Shown here one piece after another: positions 1,420-10,081 of a DNA stretch of 44,223 nt; the stretch's first letter is position 1, and each line of letters begins with the position of its first letter. The notes under the pieces are model-generated. The model saw nothing but the letters and a program-made list of their open reading frames with translations. It had not been told where the DNA came from and searched no databases. Origin of the DNA: Candidatus Poribacteria bacterium (GTDB lineage Bacteria; Poribacteria; WGA-4E; WGA-3G); NCBI GenBank assembly GCA_026706025.1, contig JAPOZO010000054.1:1-44223 (forward strand). Direction: 5' to 3'. The position numbers and the translations under genes are program-made.

Positions 1420-2367
1420 ATGTCTATTGATTTTGTTGAAGCACTCTCCACAGATGATTTAACCGCTATAAAGGCATCTCCTAAAACGGATGTTCACTGT
1501 CATGCGTTCTTCAGTGCACGACGGGAAAGTGTAGAACGCTGGCTCGGACATCCGCTAACCAAACCGCCGCTGAAAATGAAAGGCGTTGAGGGGATGATGG
1601 AATACGCAGACGCTGTCTTAGCACCCCACATAAAACACCGTGAAGGTTTTGAGTTCGTCGCTGTGTCGGCAATGAATGATGCAATCCAAGATGGCATTGT
1701 GATGCTTGAGATGAGCTTTGACATCCGACTGGCAGAATTCTATTCCAATGGATTAACGGAACTTCGTACCTTTATTGAAGCGTTAGTTGAGCGGTATCAA
1801 GCGCAGGCAGACCTACGTCCAGAGCTTGGCTTTTCACGTGGAGATGCTGACGACCCCAAGCTAATGGCGTTAGCACACGAAGCGGTGGAATTAGGTTTTT
1901 TTCAGTCGATTGATTTGTATAGTCGTCAAGAGGTGTGTCCGCCAGAGGTTATGAAGTCGTTGTTTACAAAGGCACGCGCAGCCGGAATGAAGCTGAAAGC
2001 ACATGTCGGAGAATTTGAAGACGCTGAGGAAATCCGACGGACGGTCGAAGTCCTTGACTTGGACGAGGTCCAACACGGTATTGCTGCTGCAGAATCGGTT
2101 GAAATCATGCGTTGGCTTTCCGAGCATCAAATTCAGTTGAACGTCTGTCCAACGAGCAACGTGATGTTGGACGGTGTCCCGGATCTCGCCTCACATCCCA
2201 TCCGCGTCTTATTTGATAACGGTGTGCCGGTGACGATTAACACAGACGACCTGATGATATTCGGTCAGAGCGTTTCTGAAGAGTATCGGAATCTCTACCA
2301 AGCGGGTGTTTTCAGTGCTGAAGAGTTGAATGATGTTCGGCGCGCGTCCGTCCCTTGTCTCGGTTAA
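1420..2367 (+). CDS. Adenosine-deaminase-family metallohydrolase, copy 1
   Basis: A 315-residue protein with the amidohydrolase/adenosine deaminase motif order: metal-binding HxH in DVHCHAFF near residue 27, the catalytic HxGE in LKAHVGEFE, VQHG for the next metal histidine, the CPTSN motif, and NTDD for the metal aspartate. The family hydrolyses amino groups from purine nucleosides or related compounds with one zinc; the exact substrate is unknown. A paralogue lies at 10181-11155, very similar through most of its length. The protein ends soon after RRAS, where normal family members continue for another helix or two, so the C-terminus looks shortened. The stop lies next to a fragment of a palindromic repeat (AGGAACCTCGCC). 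No clear ribosome binding site precedes the ATG. Confidence 0.8.
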   Translation: MSIDFVEALSTDDLTAIKASPKTDVHCHAFFSARRESVERWLGHPLTKPPLKMKGVEGMMEYADAVLAPHIKHREGFEFVAVSAMNDAIQDGIVMLEMSFDIRLAEFYSNGLTELRTFIEALVERYQAQADLRPELGFSRGDADDPKLMALAHEAVELGFFQSIDLYSRQEVCPPEVMKSLFTKARAAGMKLKAHVGEFEDAEEIRRTVEVLDLDEVQHGIAAAESVEIMRWLSEHQIQLNVCPTSNVMLDGVPDLASHPIRVLFDNGVPVTINTDDLMIFGQSVSEEYRNLYQAGVFSAEELNDVRRASVPCLG

Positions 2368-2428: not shown

Positions 2429-2457
2429 TTGACAATGCAAGGTAGATGTCGTATCAT
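2429..2457 (+). promoter_or_regulatory. Sigma70-type promoter for the structured RNA region
   Basis: TTGACA at 2429-2434, a 17-base spacer and TATCAT at 2452-2457. The -35 box is perfect and the -10 matches at four of six positions. It predicts a transcript start near 2464, ahead of the structured stretch and its terminator. Confidence 0.65.
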
Positions 2458-2463
2458 TAACAT

Positions 2464-2726
2464 TAGTATCTAAAATCTAACGTGGATAAATCCAATATTT
2501 AGCGGTTATTAACCGTTGTTGAAAAACGAGAAAAATGACCCTTTTACGCTCACACTCCAGCTTGCATAGCATGTTTAAACGTTGGCATAATAAGCGACCT
2601 AATTGCTTGTGGGGGGTGTGCGCGCAAACGGATAACTGAACTATGGATTGAAAATCGTCATTTTTCATTTTAAATTCCGTTGAAGCCTTATGCACACCGA
2701 TCCTGGTAGCATAAGGTCTTTTTTTT
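2464..2726 (+). ncRNA. Candidate structured non-coding RNA of unknown family
   Basis: About 260 bases between a consensus-like promoter and an intrinsic terminator. It forms nested pairings: a hairpin CGGTT-ATT-AACCG near 2503; a perfect 10-bp helix of 2530-2539 (GAAAAATGAC) with 2657-2666 (GTCATTTTTC); inside it, an arm of 2540-2558 with 2613-2631, including CACACTCC with GGGGTGTG and three mismatches; and a small hairpin at 2592-2608 with loop CCTAA. The 3' side has about 25 unpaired bases (2632-2656), giving a rod with an asymmetric internal loop, loosely like 6S RNA. No convincing coding frame is present on the plus strand. It could also be a leader regulating the ABC exporter at 3044. 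The family is not recognised. Confidence 0.5.
2686..2726 (+). terminator. Rho-independent terminator
   Basis: CCTTATGC (2686-2693) pairs perfectly with GCATAAGG (2709-2716), with a 15-base loop, and is followed at once by TCTTTTTTTT. It ends the structured RNA candidate. Confidence 0.75.
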
Positions 2727-3043: not shown

Positions 3044-4816
3044 ATGTCAACAGAGAATCCGAAGGCTGTCGGAAAGCGATTTTTAAAAGGTGTTTTCCCA
3101 TACTGGCCCCAAATTGTTAAGACCATGTTGTGCATGACTGCAATGGTGGGTTTCTCGCTGCTGATACCTCTTTTTACAAAATTAGTGATAGACAGAGCCA
3201 TTACGCAACAAGACCAAAAATTGCTTTGGATCGTTTGCCTTGGAGGTGTTGGTTCTATCTGTGTGTATGTTCTACTTTCTCTAATACGGGACCGATTCTA
3301 CATCTATACAACAAGGCGGATCCTACTTGATTTTCGGAATCGTTTTTTCCAACATCTCTTGCGTCTTCCGATGCCGAGTCTCACCAAAAGGCAAACAGGG
3401 GAATATGGTTCCATGATCATTAACGATGTAGATGCAATTCTGACGAGTGCAACATATAATGTCCTTCATTTCTTTACAGACACTTTGTCAGCAGTTGCCA
3501 TAATCTCTATAATGTTTTACTTCAATTGGAGGTTGGCACTGATTGCACTGATCGTTGTGCCCCTTAATGGTCTCACTTACGTCTACTTTCGACCGCATTT
3601 TCATAAAGCAACCCTGAAGAGACAAGAAGCGACAGCGGCAACCCTTTCGTATGTGCAGCAGACATTGTCAGCGGTTCGACTGGTAAAGTGCTTTTCGGCG
3701 GAGAAACATCATAACCGTTCCTTCTTTCGGGAATCAAAGGGATTGCTTTTCGCGCAAGCGAAGGTTTCGGTTTTGGAATCGATTGCGGGTAACATTAGTC
3801 AGTTCGTGGTGAGAATTCAACCCATCGCGATTATCTGTTTTGGCGGTATGGAAGTCTTAAAGAGTCGATTGACGATTGGTGAGTTGGTCGCCTTCTCGGC
3901 GTATCTTGAGTACTTGTCTGCGCCTGTATATCGTATACTCCACTTCCACCTTGGACTCGCCGCTACCAAAGCGGTACTCCAGCGTCTTTTCCAAGTTCTT
4001 GATTTAACGGATGAACATGGCGAAGCACAAGATTTGGAAAAGAAAAAACTTGATGATGTAGCAGGGCACATTCAGTTTCAGTCTGTGCGTTTTGCCTATG
4101 AAGAGATTGAGGTTCTCAAAGACATCAATTTGGATGTCCCCCCAGGTTGCAATGTCGCGCTTGTTGGTCCTTCGGGTTCTGGCAAAACCACACTGACGAA
4201 TCTAATTCCTCGCTTGTATGAACCTAATGCCGGGCATCTTCTGCTTGATGGACATGATTTGCAAACTTTAGACTTGAAATTCCTAAGACAGCAGATTGGA
4301 ATTGTAGCACAAGAACCGGTTTTATTTGATGTGAGTATCAAAGATAATATCCGTTATGGGTGCTCCTCAGCAACAGACGAGGAAGTTTACGCCGCAGCTC
4401 GAGCGGCTAACATACATGAGTTCATTGTGTCTCTACCGGAGGGGTACGAGACACAGATCGGTGAACGCGGTTTTAAGTTGTCTGGTGGTCAAAAACAGCG
4501 TGTCGCCATTGCCATGGCAATCCTGAAAAATCCAAAAATTTTAATTTTAGATGAAGCGACAAGTGCACTGGACTCACAATCCGAGGCACTTATCCAAGAG
4601 GCACTCCAAAATGTCATGAAACAGCGGACGACCTTTGTCATTGCTCACCGCCTCTCTACAATTCGGGATGCAGACCAGATTGTCGTTATGGATCAGGGAC
4701 AGATCGTTGAAGTTGGAAATCATTCTGACTTGTTAGCGTCCGGCAAACTCTATAGCCAATTATATCGTGAGCAATTCAAATCCGTCTTAGATTCAACAGA
4801 AACGGAAGTCGAGTAG
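3044..4816 (+). CDS. ABC exporter, fused membrane and ATPase domains (MsbA-like)
   Basis: A half-transporter of 590 residues with six transmembrane helices in the first ~310 residues and a C-terminal ATPase. Visible motifs: Walker A GPSGSGKTT near residue 373, Q-loop VAQEPVLFD, signature LSGGQKQR near 478, Walker B ILILDEATSALD near 500 and the H-loop IAHRLST near 532. It should act as a homodimer in the inner membrane exporting a lipid, peptide or drug; the substrate cannot be deduced. I prefer the ATG at 3044 because GGGAG lies nine bases upstream; an in-frame ATG at 2987 would add 19 residues that look unlike the family. It precedes a CBM9/DUF5916 outer-membrane gene and an ECF sigma fusion. 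Confidence 0.9.
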   Translation: MSTENPKAVGKRFLKGVFPYWPQIVKTMLCMTAMVGFSLLIPLFTKLVIDRAITQQDQKLLWIVCLGGVGSICVYVLLSLIRDRFYIYTTRRILLDFRNRFFQHLLRLPMPSLTKRQTGEYGSMIINDVDAILTSATYNVLHFFTDTLSAVAIISIMFYFNWRLALIALIVVPLNGLTYVYFRPHFHKATLKRQEATAATLSYVQQTLSAVRLVKCFSAEKHHNRSFFRESKGLLFAQAKVSVLESIAGNISQFVVRIQPIAIICFGGMEVLKSRLTIGELVAFSAYLEYLSAPVYRILHFHLGLAATKAVLQRLFQVLDLTDEHGEAQDLEKKKLDDVAGHIQFQSVRFAYEEIEVLKDINLDVPPGCNVALVGPSGSGKTTLTNLIPRLYEPNAGHLLLDGHDLQTLDLKFLRQQIGIVAQEPVLFDVSIKDNIRYGCSSATDEEVYAAARAANIHEFIVSLPEGYETQIGERGFKLSGGQKQRVAIAMAILKNPKILILDEATSALDSQSEALIQEALQNVMKQRTTFVIAHRLSTIRDADQIVVMDQGQIVEVGNHSDLLASGKLYSQLYREQFKSVLDSTETEVE

Positions 4817-5036: not shown

Positions 5037-7034
5037 ATGAGCGTTAATGTAAATATCATCATTCGATCGTGGACAGTTTTACTGAGTTCTATAGCTTTTT
5101 TCCTTGCAGTGAATCTCGCTGCCGAGTCTCAGACGATAGAAGCTATTAAATTCCACACCTCTCCCGCGATTGATGGTAAACTTGATGATGAGTGTTGGCA
5201 GCGCGTGACAGGAATCGACGCATTCAAAATCGCGGAGTTGGAAACAACTGTTCCTAACAGAACCGAGGTATTTCTGGGATTTGATGACGAAGCACTCTAT
5301 GTCAGTTTTCGTTGTGTTCAGAAAGAAGCATCCATAATTGCAAATCAGACGCGAAGGGATGGGAGTTTTCAATATGAGGACCATGTTGCCGTATATCTTG
5401 ATACACATCATGACCGCCGTCGTTCTTATTGCTTTGCTGTGAGTCCACTTGGCATACAACGGGACGAGAAACAAGATGACTTAGGTTGGGATGGCGAATG
5501 GTTTGCCGCTGCAATCGTAGAACCGTCTGTGTGGACAGTTGAGATGAAAATTCCGTTTGAGATGCTTGATTTGCCTCAGTCTGCCAAACAGACCTGGGGA
5601 CTTAACCTCGTGCGCCGCCATCAAAGTCTTGATCGGACCAGTATTTGGGCGGACACGGGTGTTAACGTTTCTGACGCGAATCAATTCGGGACGTTGACGA
5701 ACCTTGAATTCAATCCGAAGGACGCTGGAAGAAAATTTCAACTCGGCGGGTATTTCTCCGGTAAAGCCGAGGATTTTTCAACAACCGAAGACCTCTCAAC
5801 GCGATTCGCAGCGGCTATCGGCGGTGATGTCGTCTATAAGCTGACAACCAGTACCTCTTTTATTGGCACAGTGAATCCCGACTTCAGCCACATTGAGTCA
5901 GAAGTTCAAGGGATCGTTTTATCTGATCTGGAGCAACGCTTAACTGACCGACGTCCCTTCTTTCAAGAAGACGGACGAATCTTTAGAGCACCCATCGCGC
6001 TTTTTTATAGTCGTCGTATTGGTGAAATGGCTTACGGGGCGAAACTCATCGGTAAAACTGGAAAAGCAACATACGGATTGATGAATGTCAAGGAGAAAAA
6101 CGATGAGAGTCATAACGTTTTACTGCGCGGACTTTGGGACGCAGGCAACGCATCTTCGTTTGGGCTCTTTTTTGCCTCGAAAGAGATACCGGGGACATAT
6201 AACAGATCCGTCGCCTTTGATGGCTCCATTCGTTTACCGAGGGCACTGAACTTTGTGACATCCTATGCCGGAAATTGGGAACCACATAAGGAGAACACTC
6301 GTGCTTTCATCGCGGAAGTAAAGCGTAAAGGTAATCCGATTCTAAGTCTCGCCTATCGCGATTTTTCGGGAGGCTTTAATCCTGTCAATGGATACGTTCG
6401 ACTCACAGATGTCCGGCAACCCAGTTTTTGGGGCGTGTACCAGTGGCCCGTTGAGAAAGGGTTTTTGCGAGCTATCAAATTTGAATCTGTCCAATCTGTG
6501 ACGTGGGATCAAGCTGGCGAAAAAACACGAGGTCACCATTTTCAACTGATCGGTTTTGATTTGGGAGAAAAGATAGAGACAGGGTTTTTCTACAGAAACT
6601 GGTCTTACGATATATACTCAAATTGGGTGGTTGCAGCGCAGACAACGTATAACCGTCAGAGACCTGACCGTATTTTTGTCGTCTACCAACATGGCGAGTT
6701 TGAGGGTGCCACGGCAACATTTGTCACGACGGCGATGAACTTAATCCCGTTCCGTTTTTTGTCGCTCGGTATTGAAGGTGAAAACCTCTGGCAGACTTTT
6801 CCAGACGGGCATAAGACTCGAAATTTTTCTCTCCGCGCAAGTATGAATCTTGAAATCGGAGCGGAAAGGTGGGTAACGGTTCGGCTGCGTTCAGCGCGTA
6901 AACATAAGCCAAATTTCAATGCCGTCTTTAAATATACTTTTGTCGAAAATCTTGTGTTATACATTGTCTACGGAGATCAACACGCCGAAGCGACAATCAA
7001 CCAATTGTTTACAAAAATTGCCTTTAGTTGGTAG
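5037..7034 (+). CDS. Secreted CBM9-like / DUF5916 outer-membrane protein, copy 1
   Basis: A 665-residue protein with a signal peptide (hydrophobic run SWTVLLSSIAFFLAVNLAA). A carbohydrate-family-9-like domain follows from about residue 35, with PAIDGKLDDECWQ, the aromatic strand ALYVSFRC, and a matched set of domain markers through residue ~220. The rest resembles the DUF5916 C-terminal region, marked by VNPDFSHIESEVQG, RRPFFQEDG and FYSRRIG, and is rich in alternating amphipathic strands ending in FSW, as expected of an outer-membrane beta-barrel. The family is common in Bacteroidota and related groups, but its function is unproven; binding or export of a glycan or other ligand is a guess. 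AAGGAG precedes the ATG. A second family member is at 25572. Confidence 0.75.
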   Translation: MSVNVNIIIRSWTVLLSSIAFFLAVNLAAESQTIEAIKFHTSPAIDGKLDDECWQRVTGIDAFKIAELETTVPNRTEVFLGFDDEALYVSFRCVQKEASIIANQTRRDGSFQYEDHVAVYLDTHHDRRRSYCFAVSPLGIQRDEKQDDLGWDGEWFAAAIVEPSVWTVEMKIPFEMLDLPQSAKQTWGLNLVRRHQSLDRTSIWADTGVNVSDANQFGTLTNLEFNPKDAGRKFQLGGYFSGKAEDFSTTEDLSTRFAAAIGGDVVYKLTTSTSFIGTVNPDFSHIESEVQGIVLSDLEQRLTDRRPFFQEDGRIFRAPIALFYSRRIGEMAYGAKLIGKTGKATYGLMNVKEKNDESHNVLLRGLWDAGNASSFGLFFASKEIPGTYNRSVAFDGSIRLPRALNFVTSYAGNWEPHKENTRAFIAEVKRKGNPILSLAYRDFSGGFNPVNGYVRLTDVRQPSFWGVYQWPVEKGFLRAIKFESVQSVTWDQAGEKTRGHHFQLIGFDLGEKIETGFFYRNWSYDIYSNWVVAAQTTYNRQRPDRIFVVYQHGEFEGATATFVTTAMNLIPFRFLSLGIEGENLWQTFPDGHKTRNFSLRASMNLEIGAERWVTVRLRSARKHKPNFNAVFKYTFVENLVLYIVYGDQHAEATINQLFTKIAFSW

Positions 7035-7102
7035 TTCACTTTATAAACCTTAAACCTATTATTCAATGCGGACACTCAAAGTTACATTTAGGAGGGTTTC
7101 CA

Positions 7103-10081
7103 GTGGAAAGAGGAAATGATGCTCAACTCATTCAGGATACGTTGGCAGGCGATGATGAAGCATTTGATGTTTTGGTACGAAAGTACCAAAAGAGTGTTCA
7201 CGCCCTCGCTTGGCGGAAAATCCGTGATTTTCACTACGCTGAAGAGGTAACCCAAGACACGTTCCTTCGCGCATATCAAAACCTCTCGACGCTCAAGAAG
7301 CCTCACCAATTTGCTGGATGGCTGTATGTCATCGCAAACCGGCTTTGTATCAATTGGCTTCAAAAACAGAAATCTGCCATACAATCCTTAGAGGACACGC
7401 CCATGGAAGAAATCGAGGATGCCTCGTATACACATTATGAATCTGAACGACGTAAAACAGCAGCTAGCGAGCATCGCCTTGAACTCGCCAAAAAACTCCT
7501 CGCCAAACTTCCAGAGAGTGAGCAAACTGTCGCCACCCTCTATTACCTCGGTGAGATGACGACCAAAGAGATTGGCAGATTCTTAGGGGTGTCCGTGAAC
7601 ACGATTACGAGTCGGCTTCAGCGCGCCCGAAAGCGTTTACAAGATGACCAAGAACATCTTATCAAAGAGGTCCTCGGCGGCAGGCAGATACCAGCGCGTT
7701 TAAGTGAGAGCATCAAGCAGCAAATCGCTGATATGAAACCTACACCCTCGCCAGCTGGAAAACCGTTGCTGCCGTGGAGTGCCTTCGGCACAGCCGTGGT
7801 CGTGATTATATTGATGCTCGGGGTCAGCAGCCGATATCTTAACCGTTTTCAGAGACCCTATAACTTTGAGGCGCGATCTGAACCTACGATTGAAATCATT
7901 GAGGCACCTGTCGTTTTTGATGTTGACTCGAAACCCGATGTGCGAAATCAGGTCGGACGCGCCATGTCCTCAGACAAAAGCACGGGGGCAAGTTTGCAAA
8001 CTTTTGAGAACGCTTCAACCTCTAATGCACAAGACGATTCCGCTAAGTTTTCCAGCGCACAATGGATACAAGGGAATGCACCACCAGGGGGACATGTCCG
8101 CAATATCTTCGCTGGCACTGAAGGTACCCTGTATGCTGTTTCACCAACAGGGCTGTACAGGTTTGCAGTAGGTGCGGCCGCATGGACACGCATCAACGCA
8201 AATATCCCGATTGACAAATCTTTCATGCCGATGGCAGCACATGAAGGTTCCCTTTATATTGTCTCGGTTGATGCGATATTTACTTCAGATGATAGAGGCG
8301 AGACATGGAATTCGGTGAGTTCTCGACCCAAAGGGTATGCTATTGGGCTCATCATCCCAGATGTGCCGCAGGCACCTATGACGATGTATCTTGCACTTCA
8401 AGATAAAGGGGTTTTCCGTTCTACAGATGGTGGCATAAAATGGGATCCCCTCACTGAGGGACTGAGAAACGAAAGGATTTCTACCATAGCGACTGTTGGA
8501 GAAATAGTGTTTGTTGGCACGAACCGCGGCCTCTACCATCTCGATTCAGATATTTGGAAAAAGTTGCCGGTGGGTGCGTCACAAGCTGTCTATTCCTTGG
8601 CAGTCTTTAATAATAATGTTTATGTTGCAACGGGACCCGATCTGCCCCATCTCGATTCAGATATTTGGAAAAAGTTGCCGGTGGGTGCGTCACAAGCTGT
8701 CTATTCCTTGGCAGTCTTTAATAATAATCTTCATACTGAAACGGGTCCCGATCTATTGGGATTCACGCCAATAGAGGTAGGGCAAGCGGTGCCGAAAAGC
8801 GAGTTACATTCAGTCAGGGTTTTTCATTCGGCTGACTTGGGAGCGTCATGGACCGAAATAATGCATATAGATAAACCTGACTCGAAGGCAAGTGCATCGG
8901 GTATAACGGTTTTAGCTGCCGGTGAAACGATCTTAGCTTTGGGAGTTACACAATCTCGTTCGACAGATGGTGGGCATACGTGGACAGAGTTCGGCATTGA
9001 AACGGATATGCCCATGATTAACAGCCTTCCAGCCGTAGCAGTGAACGAGACGACATTTTACAAAGCTGGGGCATCGGGCATTCATCGCACAACTGATAGC
9101 GGTAAATCGTGGCATCTATTTATGGATGGAATAGTCGGAACAAGGACAAACAACCTGGTTGTTTTCAATAACAGATTATACGCGCACACCGGCTATGAAG
9201 TTTATCAATCAACAGATGAAGGTGGGACTTGGAAAAAACTTTCGATTGCCGGGGAGTTTGCTACGGAGGGGGCTACGTCTGAACCCTTAAAACAGGACAG
9301 GTTACGTGTCTATGCTTCTTTCGATTCAAAGTTGATGGTTGACGGTAACATACTTTATTTCGTTTCGCCTGAAAGGCACATCTTGCGAATTTACCGTTTA
9401 TCTGTAGATGGCAATATGCTCATTCCAGTTCAAAACTTTTCTACGTATGATCATGAATCGTTATCTCCTCTGCCTGAAAAAGAGGTGAAAATCAAAGCGA
9501 TTGTCGTCTGTAATAATGTCCTCTATGCTGAATACGGACAAAGACTTTTCAAATGGAAATTAGGTGATCCCAAATGGATGGATACTGGATTGATGAACAC
9601 AGATAAGCAACCTAACGCGGAAATAAAAAATGGTTTCGAGGTAGCAGTTTCAGAAGCAACCGTTTATGTCGGTAAGCGAGATGGTCAACTGTTTCAATCG
9701 CTGGATAGCGGAAAAAACTGGAAAGACATTACGCTAAGTCTGCCCCTTCGCTTTACGCATTTCAACGATATCCTCTTTGTAGGTTCAACGATTTATGTCG
9801 CAACAGACGCAGGGGTCTTGACTTCAAAAACCGGCGAACACTGGCGCGTGATAACTGATAACTTGGGAGAACGTTCCGTCATCAACAGATTTGCTATGGA
9901 TGGTATAACAGTTTATGGTGCTGGTGATGCCGGGATCTACCGTTTGGATAACCTTGGCAAATGGAAGCAGATTTCTTCGGAAGTTTTAGGTGAAATTATT
10001 TCTCTCGCCGTCATTAACAATCGACTCTATACTGCCATTAATGAGCGAGGGATCTTTCATATCTCACTTGGCGAAGAATAG
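7103..10081 (+). CDS. ECF sigma factor fused via a membrane helix to an Asp-box beta-propeller
   Basis: A 992-residue protein. Residues ~5-190 are an ECF sigma factor: region 2 (FDVLVRKYQKSVHALAW, EEVTQDTFLRAY, FAGWLYVIANR) and region 4 (ATLYYLGEMTTKEIGRFLGV, TITSRLQRARKRL). A single hydrophobic helix follows near 222-243 (FGTAVVVIILMLGV). The remainder, likely outside the cytoplasm, has repeated Asp-boxes of the S-x-D-x-G-x-T-W type (SDDRGETW, STDGGIKW, SADLGASW, STDGGHTW, TTDSGKSW, STDEGGTW, SLDSGKNW), as in sialidase or HCF136-like propellers. The preferred start is GTG 7103, seven bases after GGAGGG and aligning with the other ECF gene at 20918. An in-frame ATG at 7028 overlaps the DUF5916 gene and adds an unrelated leader. 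It may sense an extracellular or periplasmic signal and regulate its neighbours. Confidence 0.85.
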   Translation: MERGNDAQLIQDTLAGDDEAFDVLVRKYQKSVHALAWRKIRDFHYAEEVTQDTFLRAYQNLSTLKKPHQFAGWLYVIANRLCINWLQKQKSAIQSLEDTPMEEIEDASYTHYESERRKTAASEHRLELAKKLLAKLPESEQTVATLYYLGEMTTKEIGRFLGVSVNTITSRLQRARKRLQDDQEHLIKEVLGGRQIPARLSESIKQQIADMKPTPSPAGKPLLPWSAFGTAVVVIILMLGVSSRYLNRFQRPYNFEARSEPTIEIIEAPVVFDVDSKPDVRNQVGRAMSSDKSTGASLQTFENASTSNAQDDSAKFSSAQWIQGNAPPGGHVRNIFAGTEGTLYAVSPTGLYRFAVGAAAWTRINANIPIDKSFMPMAAHEGSLYIVSVDAIFTSDDRGETWNSVSSRPKGYAIGLIIPDVPQAPMTMYLALQDKGVFRSTDGGIKWDPLTEGLRNERISTIATVGEIVFVGTNRGLYHLDSDIWKKLPVGASQAVYSLAVFNNNVYVATGPDLPHLDSDIWKKLPVGASQAVYSLAVFNNNLHTETGPDLLGFTPIEVGQAVPKSELHSVRVFHSADLGASWTEIMHIDKPDSKASASGITVLAAGETILALGVTQSRSTDGGHTWTEFGIETDMPMINSLPAVAVNETTFYKAGASGIHRTTDSGKSWHLFMDGIVGTRTNNLVVFNNRLYAHTGYEVYQSTDEGGTWKKLSIAGEFATEGATSEPLKQDRLRVYASFDSKLMVDGNILYFVSPERHILRIYRLSVDGNMLIPVQNFSTYDHESLSPLPEKEVKIKAIVVCNNVLYAEYGQRLFKWKLGDPKWMDTGLMNTDKQPNAEIKNGFEVAVSEATVYVGKRDGQLFQSLDSGKNWKDITLSLPLRFTHFNDILFVGSTIYVATDAGVLTSKTGEHWRVITDNLGERSVINRFAMDGITVYGAGDAGIYRLDNLGKWKQISSEVLGEIISLAVINNRLYTAINERGIFHISLGEE
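8536..8757 (+). repeat. 111-bp tandem duplication inside the propeller
   Basis: Bases 8536-8646 and 8647-8757 are a direct repeat of 37 codons. The first ~80 bases of each unit are identical (HLDSDIWKKLPVGASQAVYS and onward), while the last ~30 have diverged. The unit matches about one propeller blade segment and keeps the reading frame. Confidence 0.9.

Follow-up and report, generated by a model that had tools for sequence, protein, structure and literature searches.

The window, a stretch of 44,223 nucleotides on a contig belonging to a 6.3 Mb genome of the sponge symbiont Candidatus Poribacteria, contains a promoter, a strongly paired RNA and an intrinsic terminator, which lie downstream of an adenosine-deaminase-like gene and upstream of a gene for an MsbA-like ABC exporter (Table 1). 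These three parts had been put forward in a preliminary description of the locus, and all of them stand. The promoter is the joint-best match found by a promoter scan in the first 6 kb of the window, and identical -35 and -10 hexamers precede a related leader upstream of hisI in the same genome. The 10-bp long-range helix and the 16-pair inner arm are present as claimed, and the predicted fold of the RNA (-70.1 kcal/mol, z -2.85) was equalled in stability by only 2 of 200 shuffled sequences. The terminator, which a simple scan missed because of the long loop of its hairpin (2686-2726), is also borne out. On the other hand, the region had been described as having no ORF, which proved incorrect: the ATG at 2535 opens a frame that runs through the structure and is also kept in homologues, and which is shorter than the usual ORF length limits. 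The start codon of the exporter lies 318 nt beyond the U-tract; this gap is conserved among copies of the element, includes a weak promoter-like site (2898-2927) and may hold a promoter of the exporter's own. Elsewhere in the window, a single ORF (7028-10081) combines BNR/sortilin-type repeats with an ECF sigma factor.

Table 1. Features of the element and its flanking genes in the window
Feature	Position	Strand	Remarks
Adenosine-deaminase-like gene	1420-2367	+	Upstream of the element; context of window-type copies
Promoter	2429-2457	+	TTGACA-17-TATCAT; 11/12 consensus match; kept in homologues
Start-codon-blocking helix, 5' strand	2530-2539	+	10 bp with 2657-2666
Leader ORF	2535-2639	+	MTLLRSHSSLHSMFKRWHNKRPNCLWGVCAQTDN; 34 codons; TGA stop 2637-2639; kept in homologues
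Segment 1	2540-2558	+	Partner is segment 2; 16 pairs; 84% of cells paired
Sensor position	2580-2594	+	CGT TGG CAT AAT AAG (RWHNK); hisI leaders: CAT TGG CAT TGG TGG (HWHWW)
Segment 2	2613-2631	+	Partner is segment 1; GGTGTGC (2615-2621) pairs with segment 3
Start-codon-blocking helix, 3' strand	2657-2666	+	88% of cells paired in 42 leaders
Segment 3	2686-2698	+	CCTTATGC (2686-2693), terminator 5' strand; GCACACC (2692-2698), antiterminator 3' strand
Segment 4 and U-tract	2709-2726	+	GCATAAGG (2709-2716); U-tract 2719-2726; intrinsic terminator
MsbA-like ABC exporter	3044-4816	+	ATG at 3044; possible read-through target

Homologues of the element were recovered in 36 of the searches of 37 same-genus genomes (own genome included), and the own genome carries a second copy that is 79% identical to the element of the window. 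The main copies occupy one conserved locus across the genus, in almost all genomes just upstream of genes encoding 126, 501 and 187 residues. The first of these is hisI (phosphoribosyl-AMP cyclohydrolase), and the other two, trpE and trpG, encode anthranilate synthase. The neighbours zapA and rny, which would have indicated 6S RNA by synteny, were ruled out by these identities. The ribosome-binding site and ATG of hisI come directly after the U-tract in roughly half of the genomes, so that this gene can be reached only via read-through of the terminator.

The frame of the hisI copies, approximately 33 codons long and followed by the terminator and the start of hisI, reads LHSISNHWHWWRSNC, and the run CAT TGG CAT TGG TGG is found in nearly all 33 aligned copies, with variable codons adjacent to it. 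Nearly all same-genus hisI leaders have HWHWW or a one-codon variant of it. In two of them (L072 and L075), the sensor is interrupted by approximately 39 nt inserted in frame (HWQ-CEAKTNSARVGRI-WWHS), with W, WW and H being kept. HWHWW and a terminator also precede hisI in another genus and in families f2 and f4, although most or all of the leader sequence differs there. Other leaders across the phylum carry RHWHWR, HWHWGW, RWWWHWRGH (f5), WWPWW (f6) or HHHWCWWH (f7), with a terminator and hisI-trpE downstream of each. At least four His or Trp codons in six were detected in 16 of 27 hisI upstream stretches versus 0.6% of dinucleotide shuffles, and two further stretches reach this density without the 330-nt limit of the scan. 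As judged from these sequences, the parent hisI leader appears to contain a short ORF with clustered codons for the very amino acids made by the pathways of its operon. Since the pattern CAYTGGCAYTGGTGG alone gives chance matches, only leaders with hisI downstream were counted; approximately six matches were dismissed as chance occurrences, since they fall within long genes but out of the frame of those genes (in a hisS-like gene of L114; L135, L162-L165). By reading of the upstream regions, no hisI leader was recognisable in genus g2 (L141, L142), in family f3 (L150, L157, L158), where hisI of g6 and that in L157 and L158 do not adjoin trpE, or in f9. The hisG and trpC loci showed no leader-like short ORF rich in His and Trp codons.

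Segment 2 has alternative partners, namely segment 1 (within the ORF) and segment 3, the latter being shared with the terminator. Across 42 leaders, 85% of the cells of the 2:3 helix are paired (94-100% excluding the outermost pair) and 99% of those of 3:4, in addition to the values for the start-blocking and 1:2 helices listed in Table 1; the inner eight pairs of 1:2 are nearly always present. The preliminary description had suggested looking for covariation in homologues, and the helices are indeed kept with some covariation, which is modest within the genus because the strands of 2:3 and 3:4 are nearly invariant there. Between families, covariation of the antiterminator is strong, GUGUGC/GCACAC being replaced by GUGUGCCU/AGGCAUAC, and GUGUGCC/GGCACAC or GGAGCGUGCCCG/CGGGCAUGCUCC also being found. 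Of 18 leaders, 15 have a 2:3 duplex that outperforms at least 96% of shuffles. The copy in the window has the promoter, the leader ORF and the 1:2, 2:3 and 3:4 helices of an attenuator, with a 2:3 duplex that is among the three exceptions and not above shuffles (0.268).

The effect of ribosome position was simulated by folding only the RNA ahead of the ribosome and taking the probability of the terminator; setting the footprint to 12 or 18 nt moved the result by one codon only. In 33 same-genus hisI leaders, the mean terminator probability is lowest, at 0.28-0.38, when H-W-H-W occupies the A site, and is at least 0.92 at nine or more codons before the sensor and at least 0.96 at seven or more codons after it, with values near 1 for a ribosome at or near the stop codon. 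In the copy of the window, this probability is 0.02 for a ribosome stalled at Trp17 and 0.83 for one at the stop codon, and low values extend over stalls at codons 2-19, a breadth that is absent from some sister copies. The equilibrium fold retains the terminator despite a stalled ribosome in some leaders of the own genus (including the hisI leader of the own genome, L032) and in nearly all leaders from other genera, which means that either the switch is kinetic there or the model is too crude. Taken as a model, the parent leader would have conserved and mutually exclusive antiterminator and terminator structures set by ribosome position, with an equilibrium effect that is weak or absent outside the genus.

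The second set of copies, which includes that of the window, lies 3' of an adenosine-deaminase-like gene and 5' of an ABC exporter or other genes. In a phylogenetic tree, the eight window-type copies form one clade within the hisI copies (support 100/98), by which the copy of the window is placed as the product of one duplication of the hisI leader. The ORF from the homologous ATG is retained in all eight and in the homologous hisI leaders. Segments 2, 3 and 4 of window-type copies share 75-100% identity with the hisI consensus, and their sensor stretch is 47-67% identical to it versus 99% within the hisI copies; sister copies read PCPCG or PRPCG at this position. The pN/pS of the window-type ORF is 0.36-0.61, with 0.36 in window-like copies, although these values come from few sequences and from an ORF overlaid by RNA structure. 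In the window itself, RWHNK stands before an ABC exporter, and no series of regulatory codons fits the genes that follow.

Several additional copies and fragments of the leader were observed. A window-type copy that is 96% identical to that of the window (L033, G052:C58) occurs in a genome assigned to another genus, and this near identity suggests transfer or else misbinning or contamination; the same genome carries a hisI leader of its own (L084). Fragments consisting of the terminator only lie after genes of the adenosine-deaminase cluster (L033:2274-2356, L034:4301-4371, L076:6086-6171, L077:13436-13554 and L078:716-786); in L076, the promoter part and the terminator part of a leader are separated by a PQQ-like gene of 508 residues. 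Judging by such arrangements, leader repeats may recombine and thereby swap the intervening genes. A third leader copy, independently derived, 79-81% identical in parts and with an altered peptide, is present at approximately 4900-5130 of L079 (G004:C87), where a ribosome site comes directly after the U-tract and a sigma-54-type regulator lies downstream. A Cobalamin riboswitch (103.8 bits) was also noted at L037:3181-3403.

Taken together, the element is most probably (about 0.82) a ribosome-mediated transcription attenuator that originated as a duplicate of the hisI-trpE-trpG leader, the putative sensor of His and Trp. Its parts, homology, synteny, codon clusters and covarying antiterminator are observed, whereas transcription, translation, stalling, switching and any effect on the ABC exporter are inferred. 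In the parent, RNA polymerase would make the leader while a ribosome translates the ORF. When His or Trp is scarce, the ribosome would halt at HWHWW and prevent 1:2 pairing across itself, and segment 2 would then pair with segment 3 to form the antiterminator, allowing transcription to proceed into hisI. When both amino acids are ample, the ribosome at the stop codon would cover segment 2, the 3:4 terminator would form and transcription would end. In the completed leader, the start of the ORF would be sequestered in its helix, limiting further initiation. Since RWHNK replaces HWHWW and the other RNA parts are kept, the copy in the window would terminate by default, with read-through restricted to cases in which a ribosome pauses within the first half of the ORF, and its specific response to His and Trp is probably lost or weak.

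What the duplicated copy does at present is less certain. The preliminary description had offered an independent small RNA or a regulatory leader of the ABC exporter, of which the idea of an attenuating mRNA leader holds by ancestry, but that ancestry belongs to hisI-trpE-trpG. The position of the element suggests, at somewhat less than even odds, that it now regulates the exporter as a weak or re-aimed attenuator. Because a stall anywhere between about codons 2 and 19 releases the terminator in the simulation, the amino acid sensor might have become a general sensor of slow translation or drugs for the exporter, similar to bmrB, a speculative and rather unlikely variant. It is conceivable to a comparable degree as exporter control that the attenuator is vestigial, with a lost sensor and drifting sequence, and that its terminator simply ends transcription of the adenosine-deaminase-like gene while the exporter uses its own promoter. 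The divergence of the sensor codons, the terminator-only fragments behind other genes of the cluster and the conserved gap with its promoter-like site all favor this, whereas the persistence of the promoter, ORF and all four helices in copies that are approximately 20-25% divergent, the similarity of segments 2, 3 and 4 to the hisI consensus and the pN/pS of window-like copies argue against it.

Since the exporter starts so far beyond the U-tract, the copy could also be a small RNA in its own right, about 260 nt long and acting in trans, possibly together with its peptide. It has its own promoter and terminator, and trans-acting RNAs and peptides derived from attenuators are known in Sinorhizobium (PMC7298713), but its ancestry is a cis leader and, in roughly one half of the hisI copies, the U-tract leads straight into the ribosome site of hisI, which makes this improbable. 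Multiple copies per genome, partial copies and the nearly identical copy in another genus would suit the end of a mobile element, which the preliminary description had named as a finding that would overturn its proposal. The conserved genus-wide locus of the main copies speaks against a transposon end, and the copies hold an entire leader that has an order-wide relative and share no common transposase, so that a mobile origin is very unlikely. Least credible of all, and already refuted at the sensitivity of the searches, is that the element is 6S RNA or belongs to some other RNA family on record. The loose likeness to 6S that had been remarked upon amounts to long rod-like pairing and nothing else: the 6S model (RF00013) found no match in the own genome, one 16.8-bit match in the genus (cut-off 46.4) and none above the cut-off in the phylum, and in a search with Rfam covariance models the stretch in the window matched no family at the gathering cut-off or even at E<=10.

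If this interpretation is true, a whole class of uncultured bacteria would couple the synthesis of His and Trp to a single switch read by the ribosome, and hisI-trpE-trpG would gain a previously unannotated regulator. The copy in the window would show the fate of such a switch after being moved to an unrelated gene, with the RNA parts kept and the sensor codons exchanged, which would be a natural test of the modularity of attenuator parts. The parent seems to be a double sensor of His and Trp, for which no description was found in the open-access literature, neither of a leader combining His codons with Trp codons nor of hisI and trpE occurring together with a leader peptide.

Compared to known systems, the Poribacteria leaders resemble the trp and his leaders of enteric bacteria (RF00513, Trp_leader; RF00514, His_leader) in the short ORF with clustered regulatory codons, the exclusive 1:2, 2:3 and 3:4 helices and a terminator just upstream of the first structural gene. 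Unlike them, the hisI leader interleaves both amino acids and precedes a mixed operon, and the copy in the window has no codon run. The two models gave no match above the cut-off, only a single 15.5-bit match to Trp_leader on the wrong strand (cut-off 41), and the hisI leaders have no Rfam match at the gathering cut-off. The thr, ilvGMEDA and ilvBN attenuators of E. coli respond to several amino acids and are similar in that more than one amino acid is sensed by a single leader, but their amino acids share a branched pathway, whereas the His and Trp pathways are separate and are linked mainly through the precursor PRPP. All three of these attenuators are named in PMC1183508. Two further precedents are instructive but are not evidence for the copy in the window. 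In Bacillus subtilis, the bmrB leader of the ABC exporter bmrCD was demonstrated to answer ribosome-targeting antibiotics by leader-peptide attenuation (PMC4191407); here too an attenuator leader precedes an ABC exporter and a run of a single amino acid is unnecessary, although the element described here is tied to its exporter by position only. In Sinorhizobium meliloti, rnTrpL and peTrpL, products of the trp attenuator, act in trans, the peptide on efflux (PMC7298713). Both cases associate something derived from an attenuator with an efflux system; in Sinorhizobium it comes from the trp leader itself and its action in trans has been demonstrated, whereas in Poribacteria it is a separate paralogue of the leader.
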